From positions 1 to 26,895 of the IMG/VR virus record IMGVR_UViG_3300042518_000237: DNA of 26,895 nt. One strand, given 5' to 3'. Each line of letters opens with the position of its first letter. The first letter of the stretch is position 1. The notes under the pieces are model-generated. The model was not told the origin of the DNA. It was given only the letters and a program-made list of their open reading frames with translations, and did no database searches. This DNA comes from a virus. Shown in pieces: positions 12,760 through 23,541 of the stretch. The translations under genes were made by a program, and so were the position numbers.

Positions 12760-12788
12760 TTGACTGCGTTACTAAAGTGTGATACAAT
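12760..12788 (+). promoter_or_regulatory. Rightward sigma70 promoter of the HNH-like gene
   Basis: TTGACT (12760-12765), a 17-nt spacer and TACAAT (12783-12788), with TG one base upstream of the -10. Start of transcription is expected near 12795, which rules out the ATG at 12760 as the gene start. Confidence 0.75.
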
Positions 12789-12807
12789 CCTGCTTTTTGG
12801 AGACACT

Positions 12808-13392
12808 ATGCAGGCACATCACTTTGCTAAAACATCACTAACTTCTCAGGAAAGGTTAAACCTTGTCCAACACTTAGTTGCTCATGGAAAACCTACTGAA
12901 GAGATACGTAAAGCTTTAGGTAATGTAAGTAGACAACGAGTACATCAACTGATTGATAAACTAGTCAAAGAAGGTCGTATCACTGATGAACAACGTCCTC
13001 GAACACAGCGTAGAGAGCTTCTAAGACAGAACTATAAGCAGAAATGGGGTCATTACCCAGAAGAGGCATCAGTGCGTGAACAAGATGCCTATCAAGCCTT
13101 TAGAGAGAAGTTTAGACGTAAGAAAGCTTCTAACTATAAACATGAATGGACTATAGAGTTTGGTGATCTAGCATTCCCTACTCATTGTCCGATACTAGGT
13201 ATTGAACTTAACTACTTTGCTCCTGAAAGACAGGAGAACTCGGTTAGCTTTGACCGTATAGACGCTACCAAAGGCTACATCAAAGGTAATGTAGTGGTAG
13301 TGTCTTGGAGAGCTAACCGTATCAAGAACGATGGTACTGCTGAAGAACATCAGAAGATTGCTGATTTCCTTAAACAGTGTCAGCACCAATAG
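12808..13392 (+). CDS. HTH plus HNH-like endonuclease (194 aa), inserted on the opposite strand
   Basis: The start is set at ATG 12808 because a clear promoter lies over the earlier ATG at 12760 and GGAGA (12799-12803) is a good ribosome site. Residues about 31-56 (TEEIRKALGNVSRQRVHQLI) form a helix-turn-helix. The C-terminal part has CPILGIEL (127-134), SFDRID (147-152) and KGYIKGNVVVVSWRANRIK (155-173), the signature of an HNH-type nuclease family widespread in phages, often as free-standing mobile or homing-type enzymes. The gene breaks the leftward structural operon. It is flanked by convergent overlap (23 bp) with the fibre-associated gene and is divergent from the 80-aa gene. Cleavage target unknown. 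Confidence 0.75.
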   Translation: MQAHHFAKTSLTSQERLNLVQHLVAHGKPTEEIRKALGNVSRQRVHQLIDKLVKEGRITDEQRPRTQRRELLRQNYKQKWGHYPEEASVREQDAYQAFREKFRRKKASNYKHEWTIEFGDLAFPTHCPILGIELNYFAPERQENSVSFDRIDATKGYIKGNVVVVSWRANRIKNDGTAEEHQKIADFLKQCQHQ

Positions 13393-20774: not shown

Positions 20775-22028
20775 CTAATAGCCTGCTACTTGGTCCAATA
20801 CTTCAAACTCTTCTTCATCAAGGTTTTGATTCCAGTTTGCAGTTTGTATTTGATCAATGTAGCTAAGTGCATCAATCAAATCATCATGTGTCTTAGTGTC
20901 TGGGAACTGCATCAGTTGGTCTAAGAACTGATAATTCCAGTCACCTTCATTTAAAACAATCCTACCATGCTCAAATCGACCCTGTAGTGACCAAACAATC
21001 CTATCTGCTTTCTTCTTATTACCATGCGTTAGTTCTTCAATCCTAGGATAGAACCCATTCCTACGCATTAGATCGTGCATATAAGGCATCACTGCATTCT
21101 TCAGCGCACCTTTCTCTATCCCAACACAACTAACTCTGTAATCCTTTGCAGCCTTTAATATACGTACTGCTGTCTCTCGGACATCCCACCTACCGTGTAG
21201 TATGTCAGCAACCCACCAACCTTTGGTGTTAACCTTAACAATGGCTATCGCTGTCTCATCCAGTTTCGAATTCTTCGACTTGTTCGTCTGAGAAGAATCC
21301 GAGAAACCACATAGATCCACCGCCATAAAGTAGTTACCTTCATCAGGTTCCTCGTCGCTTACCTTAATCCATTCTTCCTTAAATATCTCACTCTGAGATG
21401 CTTCAAACGAAGCCATAAACTCTTGTCTGAAAGCAAAGCTAGACATTGAACCTTTAGCAGCTTCAATCTCTGCTGGATCTAACAATGGATTATCAAAGCT
21501 AGTGAAGTGCCATGCCTTGTAATCCTTATCCTTACCACTATCACCTAGCCTATACAGTTCATAGAAGTGGTTTCTACCCATTGGTGTACCAATGAACATT
21601 GCTCTACCCTTCTGATCCGCTAAAGCAGGTCTTAAGATCTGTTCGAACACCTGTGGCTTCATATCAGCGTATTCGTCCATCACTAGATACTTTAAGCTGA
21701 CACCACGCATTGTCTCTGGTCTATCTGCACCCTTTAGTGAGATCATTGCACCATTGACTAAGGTAATCTGCATGTTGTTAACATGACTACCTTTAATGAC
21801 TGTATGGCCTAGCTCTAACAGCGTAGTCCACATAATATCTCTAGCTTGACCTTGCGTTGGCGCTACATACCAGACATGACCCTTTTCAGTCTGTAGTGCC
21901 TCTATGATCAGTGTCCAAGCTGCTAACCTAGATTTACCTGTACGTCTACCAGCAGCGATGATTTTAAACCTTGCTGGATCTTTAAAGACATCTTGTTGCC
22001 AGGGAAGTAACTTAACTTGTAGATCCAT
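20775..22028 (-). CDS. terL: Terminase large subunit
   Basis: This is the ATP-driven DNA packaging motor and headful nuclease. Counting from the longer possible start (TTG at 22049, 424 aa): Walker A AAGRRTGKS at 32-40, Walker B YLVMDEY at 121-127, coupling motif FIGTPMG at 152-158. The RNase H-like nuclease has acidic residues in MAVDLCGF (Asp245), CVGIEKG (Glu312) and THDDLIDAL (Asp389/390). I prefer ATG at 22026-22028 (MDLQVKLLPWQQDVF), the usual beginning in relatives, giving 417 aa; TTG at 22049 is also open. It overlaps terS by 17 bp from this start. All catalytic residues are present. Confidence 0.92.
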   Translation of the reverse strand: MDLQVKLLPWQQDVFKDPARFKIIAAGRRTGKSRLAAWTLIIEALQTEKGHVWYVAPTQGQARDIMWTTLLELGHTVIKGSHVNNMQITLVNGAMISLKGADRPETMRGVSLKYLVMDEYADMKPQVFEQILRPALADQKGRAMFIGTPMGRNHFYELYRLGDSGKDKDYKAWHFTSFDNPLLDPAEIEAAKGSMSSFAFRQEFMASFEASQSEIFKEEWIKVSDEEPDEGNYFMAVDLCGFSDSSQTNKSKNSKLDETAIAIVKVNTKGWWVADILHGRWDVRETAVRILKAAKDYRVSCVGIEKGALKNAVMPYMHDLMRRNGFYPRIEELTHGNKKKADRIVWSLQGRFEHGRIVLNEGDWNYQFLDQLMQFPDTKTHDDLIDALSYIDQIQTANWNQNLDEEEFEVLDQVAGY

Positions 22029-22509
22029 CCTCTTCTTCTTCGTAATCAATCAACGTGGTTTCTACCTCAACAGGTTCATGCTCAATCATTTCTACTGGAT
22101 TATCATTTACTCCAGTGATGTTGATGGTAATGGCTCTAGAGCCTCCTCCAACACCTTTCTCTTCAAAATAAGATACTGGCAACATCCTATCAACACACAA
22201 CTTCAGTGCTGCCATCTGATCCTTATCCTCATCATTCAATGCTTTGTGAACAATCTTACGGATAATAGCCTGTGAGTGTGTCAGCAACAGCGAAGCTGTT
22301 AACTCTTTAATCCTTGCCGCTTCACCAGGAGGTCTACCTCTTTTAGCTCTTTTGATGTACTTCTGTACCTCTTCCTTCTTTGGTCTTCCTCTTTTCCTTT
22401 TTTTGGCAGGCACTTTCTTTTCTTCATTGACTGCCACAACATCCTGGCTGACCGATGAAGGTAGCGAACAAAGATCAGATGATACAACTTCAGTTTTAAT
22501 TTCGGACAT
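22012..22509 (-). CDS. terS: Terminase small subunit with AT-hook-like motifs (165 aa)
   Basis: It lies immediately upstream of, and overlaps, terL. Residues about 38-62 contain two GRP-centred basic motifs, KRKRGRPKK and KRGRPPG, resembling AT-hooks that bind AT-rich minor groove. A helical part follows: EAARIKELTASLLLTHSQAI then DKDQMAALKLCVDRMLPVSY, the latter found in small terminases of related phages. The C-terminus is acidic (IDYEEEEDGSTS). It should recognise the packaging site. The start is ATG 22507-22509; a GTG lies just before it. An AGAGGT ribosome site supports this region. Confidence 0.8.
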   Translation of the reverse strand: MSEIKTEVVSSDLCSLPSSVSQDVVAVNEEKKVPAKKRKRGRPKKEEVQKYIKRAKRGRPPGEAARIKELTASLLLTHSQAIIRKIVHKALNDEDKDQMAALKLCVDRMLPVSYFEEKGVGGGSRAITINITGVNDNPVEMIEHEPVEVETTLIDYEEEEDGSTS

Positions 22510-22532
22510 CACTACCTCTATATAGTTTCTCT

Positions 22533-22662: not shown

Positions 22663-22692
22663 ATTGTAGCATACAAATGATATTGTTGTAAA
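22663..22692 (-). promoter_or_regulatory. Leftward promoter candidate for the terminase/structural operon
   Basis: On the minus strand TTTACA (22687-22692), an 18-nt spacer and TACAAT (22663-22668) with TGC before it, an extended -10. It has the same architecture as the promoter at 12725-12754, including the CTTTACA(A/G)CAA context. It leaves a leader of about 150 nt before terS. Confidence 0.5.
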
Positions 22693-22762: not shown

Positions 22763-22840
22763 ACTACACACCAATCAAGGCTTTAGCGGGACTCCATTAA
22801 CATGGTGTCTTAGGCTCCGCAGAGGCTTTATAGATAACCT

Positions 22841-22920
22841 ATTGATTCTTAAGAGATTTCTTAATAGTAATGAATTATCATTATCAAGTTACTTTTTAGC
22901 TTTTTTTGTGGCTAAGAAGC
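22841..22920. other. AT-rich stretch, candidate unwinding region
   Basis: This stretch is strongly AT-rich compared with its flanks and ends in a T7 run. It includes two small perfect dyads: TTAAGA-GATT-TCTTAA and AATGA-ATTA-TCATT. It lies about 50 bp to the left of the DnaA-box array, the usual relation between an unwinding element and DnaA sites. No convincing gene covers it. Confidence 0.5.
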
Positions 22921-22960
22921 ACCACAACAATTTACTACACAACTCTACCCCCTCCCCCTA

Positions 22961-23024
22961 TGTTGATAACCTGTGGATAACTATGATGTTATCTGTGGAT
23001 AACCTGTTAGTAACCTGTGGATAA
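22961..23024 (-). promoter_or_regulatory. Array of DnaA boxes (TTATCCACA), candidate replication origin
   Basis: Exact TGTGGATAA, which is TTATCCACA on the minus strand and the DnaA-box consensus, occurs at 22972-22980, 22994-23002 and 23016-23024. The starts are exactly 22 bp apart. A one-mismatch copy, TGTTGATAA, lies 11 bp earlier at 22961-22969. All are in the same direction and on one helical face. This is the arrangement of DnaA-dependent origins of chromosomes and plasmids. Confidence 0.75.
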
Positions 23025-23036
23025 CTATGTTGGTAG

Positions 23037-23147
23037 CTGTGCAGGCTGTGCAGATAGTAAAAGGGTGTGACTGTGTAGCACCCTATTGAGATACATAGAG
23101 ATACTTTATCATCGCCTAAGACTGTGCAGCCAGTGCAGGCTGTGCAG
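23037..23147 (+). repeat. CTGTGCAG/CAGTGCAG repeats, second cluster
   Basis: Exact CWGTGCAG copies start at 23037 and 23046, then at 23122, 23131 and 23140, each group at strict 9-bp spacing. Between the groups is a hairpin AGGGTG/CACCCT (23062-23067 with 23079-23084). The last repeat ends one base before the parS-like site. Confidence 0.75.
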
Positions 23148-23148
23148 C

Positions 23149-23164
23149 TGTTCCACGTGAAACG
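23149..23164. promoter_or_regulatory. parS-like centromere site
   Basis: TGTTCCACGTGAAACG matches the chromosomal parS consensus TGTTnCACGTGAAACA at all defined positions but the last. It contains the palindromic core CACGTG with the flanking GTTC/GAAAC arms. ParB-CTP clamps load at such sites in most bacteria. No parA or parB is in this window. The site may use host ParB or a phage ParB encoded elsewhere. Confidence 0.6.
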
Positions 23165-23171
23165 TTGTATT

Positions 23172-23207
23172 CGAACAACACTACCGTTCATCCTGGATTA
23201 TTGTTCG
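23172..23207. repeat. Inverted repeat CGAACAA/TTGTTCG next to the parS-like site
   Basis: A perfect 7-bp inverted repeat (23172-23178 and 23201-23207) with a 22-bp spacer. The left arm lies in a second imperfect dyad around TTCGAA (GTTGTATTCGAACAAC). It lies upstream of the rightward promoter and could be an operator. Confidence 0.4.
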
Positions 23208-23232: not shown

Positions 23233-23261
23233 TTGACAAGGCAAAATCAGCTAGGTAGTAT
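23233..23261 (+). promoter_or_regulatory. Rightward early promoter
   Basis: TTGACA (23233-23238), a 17-nt spacer and TAGTAT (23256-23261). It leads into a leader of about 45 nt and the GGAG ribosome site of the first rightward gene. Confidence 0.75.
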
Positions 23262-23310: not shown

Positions 23311-23541
23311 ATGAGCAAAGCAACTTACAACGGCTGGACTAACTACGCTACCTGGAGAATCAACCTAGAAATGTTCGATGGTTCTGAGGATACTTGGAGT
23401 GCTGACAGTGCACGGGAATTTGTCGAAGAAATAATCTATTCGACCACCACTGAAGGTGTTGCCCGTGATTATGCATTGGCATTTATCGCTGATGTAAACT
23501 GGTATGAGATCGCTGCACACTATCAGGAAGAAACAGTATGA
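23311..23541 (+). CDS. DUF7249-like small protein (76 aa)
   Basis: The opening SKATYNGWTNYATWRINLEM is the characteristic NGWTNYxTWxVNL signature of a small domain family (DUF7249) common in phages and mobile DNA, with no known function. A helical acidic middle (SADSAREFVEEIIYST) and a DVNWYEIAAHY C-terminus follow. It is the first gene after the rightward promoter, so it is probably expressed early. The stop overlaps the next start as ATGA. Confidence 0.8.
   Translation: MSKATYNGWTNYATWRINLEMFDGSEDTWSADSAREFVEEIIYSTTTEGVARDYALAFIADVNWYEIAAHYQEETV

Follow-up and report, generated by a model that had tools for sequence, protein, structure and literature searches.

Why should a phage whose relatives encode their own DNA polymerase carry, between its structural and its early genes, an array of sites for the bacterial initiator DnaA? 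The question is raised by a linear IMG/VR record of 26,895 bp from an uncultured phage (the window, which here means this whole stretch), a fragment without the later early genes, so that statements on replication genes rest on relatives. An intergenic region of about 0.8 kb with divergent flanking genes parts a minus-strand structural arm (portal, capsid, terminase) from a plus-strand early arm, and the initial annotation had rightly placed the array between the two. On one side are the large terminase subunit gene terL (20775..22049, minus strand; phrog_2, E=1.3e-43) and the probable small subunit gene terS (22012..22512, minus strand), which has no family match and is named from its place before terL; on the other side the early genes begin with a DUF7249-like ORF (23311..23541, plus strand) that scores below the curated cut-off. 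Within the minus-strand structural arm there is also a lone plus-strand HNH/endonuclease VII-like gene (12760-13392), possibly a homing endonuclease.

Three exact DnaA boxes, TTATCCACA, are found on the minus strand at 22972..22980, 22994..23002 and 23016..23024, which in terminase-strand reading are 22, 44 and 66 bp from a G-tract. Their start-to-start spacing is 22 bp and there are no other exact boxes in the window. A box with one mismatch, TTATCAACA (22961..22969, minus strand), lies 11 bp from both the G-tract and the nearest exact box, in identical orientation; the coordinates thus bear out the first description of the array in number, spacing and direction of its boxes. The same is true of the claim that chance would hardly produce it: a first-order Markov null predicts 0.27 exact boxes per window, three exact boxes within 60 bp on one strand appeared in none of 4000 simulations under this null, and an analytic estimate gives about 1e-8. 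Direct repeats with 9-bp spacing are present on the plus strand beside the array (TGTGCAG, 23038..23053) and beside the parS-type site described below (GTGCAG, 23123..23147). The strand of the GTGCAG repeats differs between lineages (window 23038-23147 and relatives), and TGTG of the DnaA box is on the strand of GTGCAG in both array orientations seen.

Pattern matches to sigma-70 promoters point towards both arms, one of them towards the early genes (TTGACA-17-TAGTAT, 23233..23261, plus strand) and another towards terS (TTTACA-18-TACAAT, 22663..22692, minus strand); sites of this kind occur in both directions in the region, in numbers no higher than expected by chance. A sign switch of the GC skew, named in the initial annotation as a possible check, is indeed observed at the intergenic region, but gene direction switches there too. 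Since skew follows gene direction, the switch provides no independent evidence and was dropped as proof of an origin. A search of the region for structured RNA with Rfam gave no match, and no tRNA was found in the two relatives examined.

Searches with the terminase, TerS and early genes yielded 78 distinct homologous intergenic regions, in 14 of which (window included) DnaA boxes occupy the slot before the G-tract. Twelve of these 14, again with the window, have boxes at -66, -44 and -22 from the G-tract; all three are exact in ten regions and two are exact in L370 and L399. Moreover, L360 has an additional exact TTATCCACA box at -11, the position of the mismatched box of the window. A different, second array of opposite orientation is carried by L023 and L418. 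Box spacing, for which an alignment of related phages had been proposed, therefore recurs, and so does the distance to the G-tract. Over eight lineages the spacings between boxes give a cosine score of 0.89 near 10.8 bp, a value reached in none of 20,000 jitters. Helical phasing is also a feature of viral contigs in general (L238-L357), where 151 of 170 spacings within pairs of exact DnaA boxes are close to 11, 21 or 32 bp; phages may thus commonly carry phased arrays of this kind.

The G-tract itself, GGGGGAGGGGG (22948..22958, minus strand; C-rich on the plus strand), is the constant core of nearly all relatives and is present as a single copy in each full-length genome. Past it lies a conserved element (22900..22928, minus strand) which reads GTTGTGGTGCTWCYTAGCC-A-tract in close relatives and GTACCYRCTCAGAYACAAAAAAGAG in distant ones. 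The succession of G-tract and A-rich element is constant over the 78 distinct regions, including most relatives at about 70% terminase identity. The stretch from the G-tract to terL is about 500 bases longer in L031 than in relatives, and by eye the surplus reads like an insertion of HNH/endonuclease VII type. Helix stability, as computed along the whole window, is lowest over 80 bp at about 22828..22907, which is 51-131 bp beyond the G-tract, on the side away from the boxes. The stability minimum is also near the G-tract in G007, G008, L040 and L067; some full-length relatives have their absolute minimum elsewhere, and in some relatives the DNA next to the G-tract ranks among the lowest 1% or less. 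By computed stability, then, a candidate DNA unwinding element adjoins the DnaA array of the window, and melting is predicted at this place. A basal unwinding (BUS) geometry, with DnaA-trios past the GC-rich block, was considered and rejected, as the triplets are unconserved by eye and box orientation varies.

The initial annotation held that relatives lacking the boxes would speak against an origin. Such relatives are in fact the majority (64 of the 78 regions), but in them precisely this slot is filled by repeat arrays of other kinds, which points to an exchangeable module and not to an artefact. With classes set by eye from simple patterns, the slot contains DnaA boxes in 14 regions, GACAATCT repeats in 11, CTATCTTGC repeats in 18, arrays of CATTCTCATTAG type in 13 and of TATGCC type in 11, and others in 11. 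All classes are enriched for direct repeats, the non-DnaA types included: repeated 8-mers are 6 to 33 times as frequent as under a Markov null, compared with 2.5 times in control sequence. Identical terS genes are accompanied by different arrays in L012, L427 and L432. When regions with near-identical terS are compared (135 pairs), the median share of common 9-mers is 0.87, and never less than 0.2, for the non-coding stretch from the G-tract to terS, whereas for the arrays it is 0.04, and 70% of the pairs have unrelated arrays. Because the neighbouring non-coding DNA is alike where arrays are unrelated, the variability is specific to the array and does not extend to the whole intergenic region.

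The replication genes of this family can be seen in G002, a full-length relative with a terminal repeat of 127 bp, hence probably a circular assembly. It encodes a primase-helicase, PolA, an exonuclease, ribonucleotide reductase, ThyX and a RusA-like resolvase, and PolA has also been found in G001, G005, G006, G007 and the DnaA-box relative G008. Single-subunit RNA polymerase (PF00940) gave no match in nine records, nor did it in the control genomes; no unassigned early ORF of G002 has the size of an RNA polymerase. By polymerase, the closest cultured phages are marine podoviruses of Pelagibacter and Roseobacter in which this enzyme is of family A (42-49% identity), and the ribonucleotide reductase is 64-66% identical to that of Roseobacter phages. 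Relatives by polymerase and reductase infect Pelagibacter, Roseobacter and rhizobia; relatives by capsid are cyanophages. The kinship with the Pelagibacter and Roseobacter podoviruses is at gene level only, terminase and capsid relatives being distant. An attempt to find the host through genome assemblies gave two matches, in MAGs of different phyla that were judged likely mis-binned.

It seems moderately probable that the intergenic region is a replication origin in which a constant core is joined to an initiator-binding cassette that can be exchanged; host DnaA boxes would be one allele of this cassette, often together with a borrowed parS. The fixed core would consist of the G-tract, the A-rich element and easily melted DNA, and the direct-repeat cassette alongside would bind the initiator. 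In the present phage and about a fifth of its relatives this cassette would be a set of host DnaA boxes on one helix face; host DnaA would assemble on it and open the adjoining unstable DNA, after which the phage primase-helicase and PolA may take over. Origin function, DnaA binding and this order of events are read from sequence layout. Such an origin would explain why the boxes are phased and keep their distance to the G-tract, why unstable DNA is found there, and why repeat arrays of other kinds can stand in for the boxes. The earlier proposal of a DnaA-type origin is thus a fair inference from the phased boxes, their recurring register and an origin-like layout of boxes, G-tract and least stable DNA. 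On the other hand, box orientation relative to the G-tract varies by lineage (window versus L023), and in plasmid RK2 inversion of one DnaA box abolishes replication (PMC4980987). A second counterpoint is that no early-arm gene within the first 6.5 kb tracks one cassette type exclusively, so that the non-DnaA arrays have yielded no cognate initiator.

A further element of the region, overlooked in the initial annotation like the G-tract, the unstable DNA and the GTGCAG repeats, is a palindrome, GTTCCACGTGAAAC (23150..23163), which is identical to the chromosomal parS core, conforms to the chromosomal parS palindrome GTTNCACGTGNAAC, and is present as a single copy in the window, where 0.001 copies are expected by chance. 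It is about 130 bp from the DnaA array. Of the 78 regions, 52 have the site intact and a further three have it in degenerate form; in L418 it deviates by one base. Over 21 loci, 13 of the 14 columns of the core are identical as against a column identity of about 0.3 in the flanks, the perfect columns being in part a matter of ascertainment, as only two of the 14 positions were left free in the search and 12 were fixed. The fair points in favour of parS are that it recurs at one place amid divergent flanks and that the two open positions show solely T/C and A/G (GTTTCACGTGGAAC 47 times, GTTTCACGTGAAAC four times and GTTCCACGTGGAAC once). In the distant relatives L040 and L049 it sits inside a five-box DnaA array, and nine of the 14 DnaA-type regions have no parS within the 420 bp examined. 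Searches for ParB_N and ParA-type proteins in these phages found none, so that no ParABS system of their own was recognised. Beside the site is a partly palindromic element, GTTGTATTCGAACAAC (23164..23179), which is conserved in close relatives and persists in some of those that miss parS. Proximity of DnaA boxes to parS was also considered as a general feature of viruses and was not seen among 80 parS contigs.

Within the origin proposed here, host ParB would be drawn to the chromosome-type parS and might, for instance, help to position, spread or compact newly made copies. Since some relatives lack the site or have it in decayed form, this role would be accessory. It could instead be the operator of a phage-encoded regulator that host ParB does not bind, a possibility that we consider doubtful. 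It is favoured by the position of the palindrome, which precedes the early promoter-like site by about 70 bp, and by the fact that binding of ParB is predicted from a match of sequence. An operator would leave unaccounted for the restriction of variants, within the searched pattern, to T/C and A/G at the two open positions, and the agreement of the fixed half GTGAAA with the conserved half of Caulobacter parS (PMC5815017). Neither does it fit the frequency of the exact 16-bp parS palindrome TGTTTCACGTGAAACA in viral contigs (L105-L184), at least 120 occurrences as against 11 and 1 for two composition-matched palindromes, that is, at least tenfold commoner. ParB_N was absent from 45 of 49 tested viral records with this palindrome. 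The site is best described as a putative target of host ParB.

The location directly upstream of terS and terL suggests another explanation, namely that the region is a packaging site, with the G-tract as cos or pac core and with repeats to which TerS or a packaging host factor binds, the DnaA-box match being secondary. In its favour, the G-tract and A-rich element are the most conserved part. Repeats bound by TerS should, however, track terS, and the distribution of array types over a tree of 74 TerS sequences is close to random: it requires 43 changes compared with a mean of 47.6 after shuffling, a number as low being obtained in 4 of 200 shuffles. Many branches of this tree are weak, but even if the well-supported ones alone are counted, the DnaA type has to change four times or more. 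Contig ends do not pile up at the G-tract, which argues weakly against packaging there and was also the reason for discarding a physical genome end at this point. As the exact, phased DnaA consensus would be left unexplained too, a packaging site is regarded as unlikely.

Another function for the boxes themselves would be that of a sink or switch, either because multiplying phage genomes titrate host DnaA and keep the host chromosome from entering new rounds of replication or because DnaA regulates the divergent promoters. Plasmids with few boxes measurably titrate DnaA in E. coli (PMC5835720), the boxes of the window are between divergent promoter-like sites, and their orientation is not fixed among lineages. 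We nevertheless find this quite unlikely, since it explains neither the unrelated repeat arrays in the same slot, nor the 11-bp register of boxes to the G-tract, nor the unstable DNA beyond it. A temperate, plasmid-maintained phage that uses a DnaA origin and host ParB for stable inheritance is very improbable: DnaA boxes and parS are what a stable low-copy replicon needs and SGI1 uses parS mimics in this way (PMC10954446), but no integrase, ParA, ParB or Rep_3 was found in nine records (the window and some relatives being incomplete), the nucleotide metabolism and PolA genes are of lytic type, and the parS site is missing near most of the DnaA arrays, as noted above. The plasmid-like replication suggested in the initial annotation is likewise unsupported, in view of these absences and of the DNA polymerase that full-length relatives, including one with DnaA boxes, encode.

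The proposed origin resembles several known systems and differs from each. Bacterial oriC of E. coli type also has phased DnaA boxes beside easily melted DNA, and parS is near the origin of many chromosomes; the phage region, however, is compact, no DnaA gene was seen with it, relatives have their own PolA and primase-helicase, and sister phages replace the boxes by other arrays. Iteron plasmid origins with DnaA boxes (RK2, pSC101, P1 oriR; PMC4980987) share direct-repeat initiator arrays, DnaA boxes and an unwinding element, whereas in the phages a single slot seems to take either DnaA boxes or other repeats, which do not look like partners. The direct-repeat arrays have the layout of iterons and no cognate Rep was found with them; the initiator search for non-DnaA arrays gave no Rep_3, which leaves room for Rep types of other kinds. 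In the PLE satellites of Vibrio cholerae, origin repeat sets are swapped between otherwise similar elements, but there the origin covaries with the RepA binding domain (PMC8263062), while in the present phages, which are not satellites, no covarying initiator gene was found. The mobile element SGI1 borrows the partition system of an IncC plasmid, and so the ParB of another replicon, through a parS-like site (PMC10954446); the phage site differs in having the chromosomal parS sequence, and its binding of ParB is putative. Phage-plasmids of P1 and N15 type are set apart by rep/par maintenance genes, which were not found in the present phages, the window itself being a fragment.

Taken singly, DnaA boxes, iterons and parS are familiar, and DnaA boxes have been predicted by software in the putative origin of another phage (PMC11512268). 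An origin slot in which near-identical phages swap DnaA boxes for unrelated arrays has no precedent in the literature searched. It is possible, and is put forward tentatively, that a lytic phage family swaps the initiator-binding array beside a fixed core by frequent recombination and that some alleles have captured host DnaA boxes and a host-type parS. What drives the swapping would be a conflict with co-infecting phages, satellites or host defences over how the origin is recognised, and host replication start and chromosome segregation would be parasitised in cis by phages encoding neither an initiator nor ParB. If the region is an origin, its relatives would constitute a natural set of swap experiments on the determinants of initiator specificity, and the boxes suggest that phages with their own polymerase may still need the host for the first opening step. 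Besides, the presence of parS in many viral contigs without ParB raises the question of whether host chromosome segregation is used by phages.
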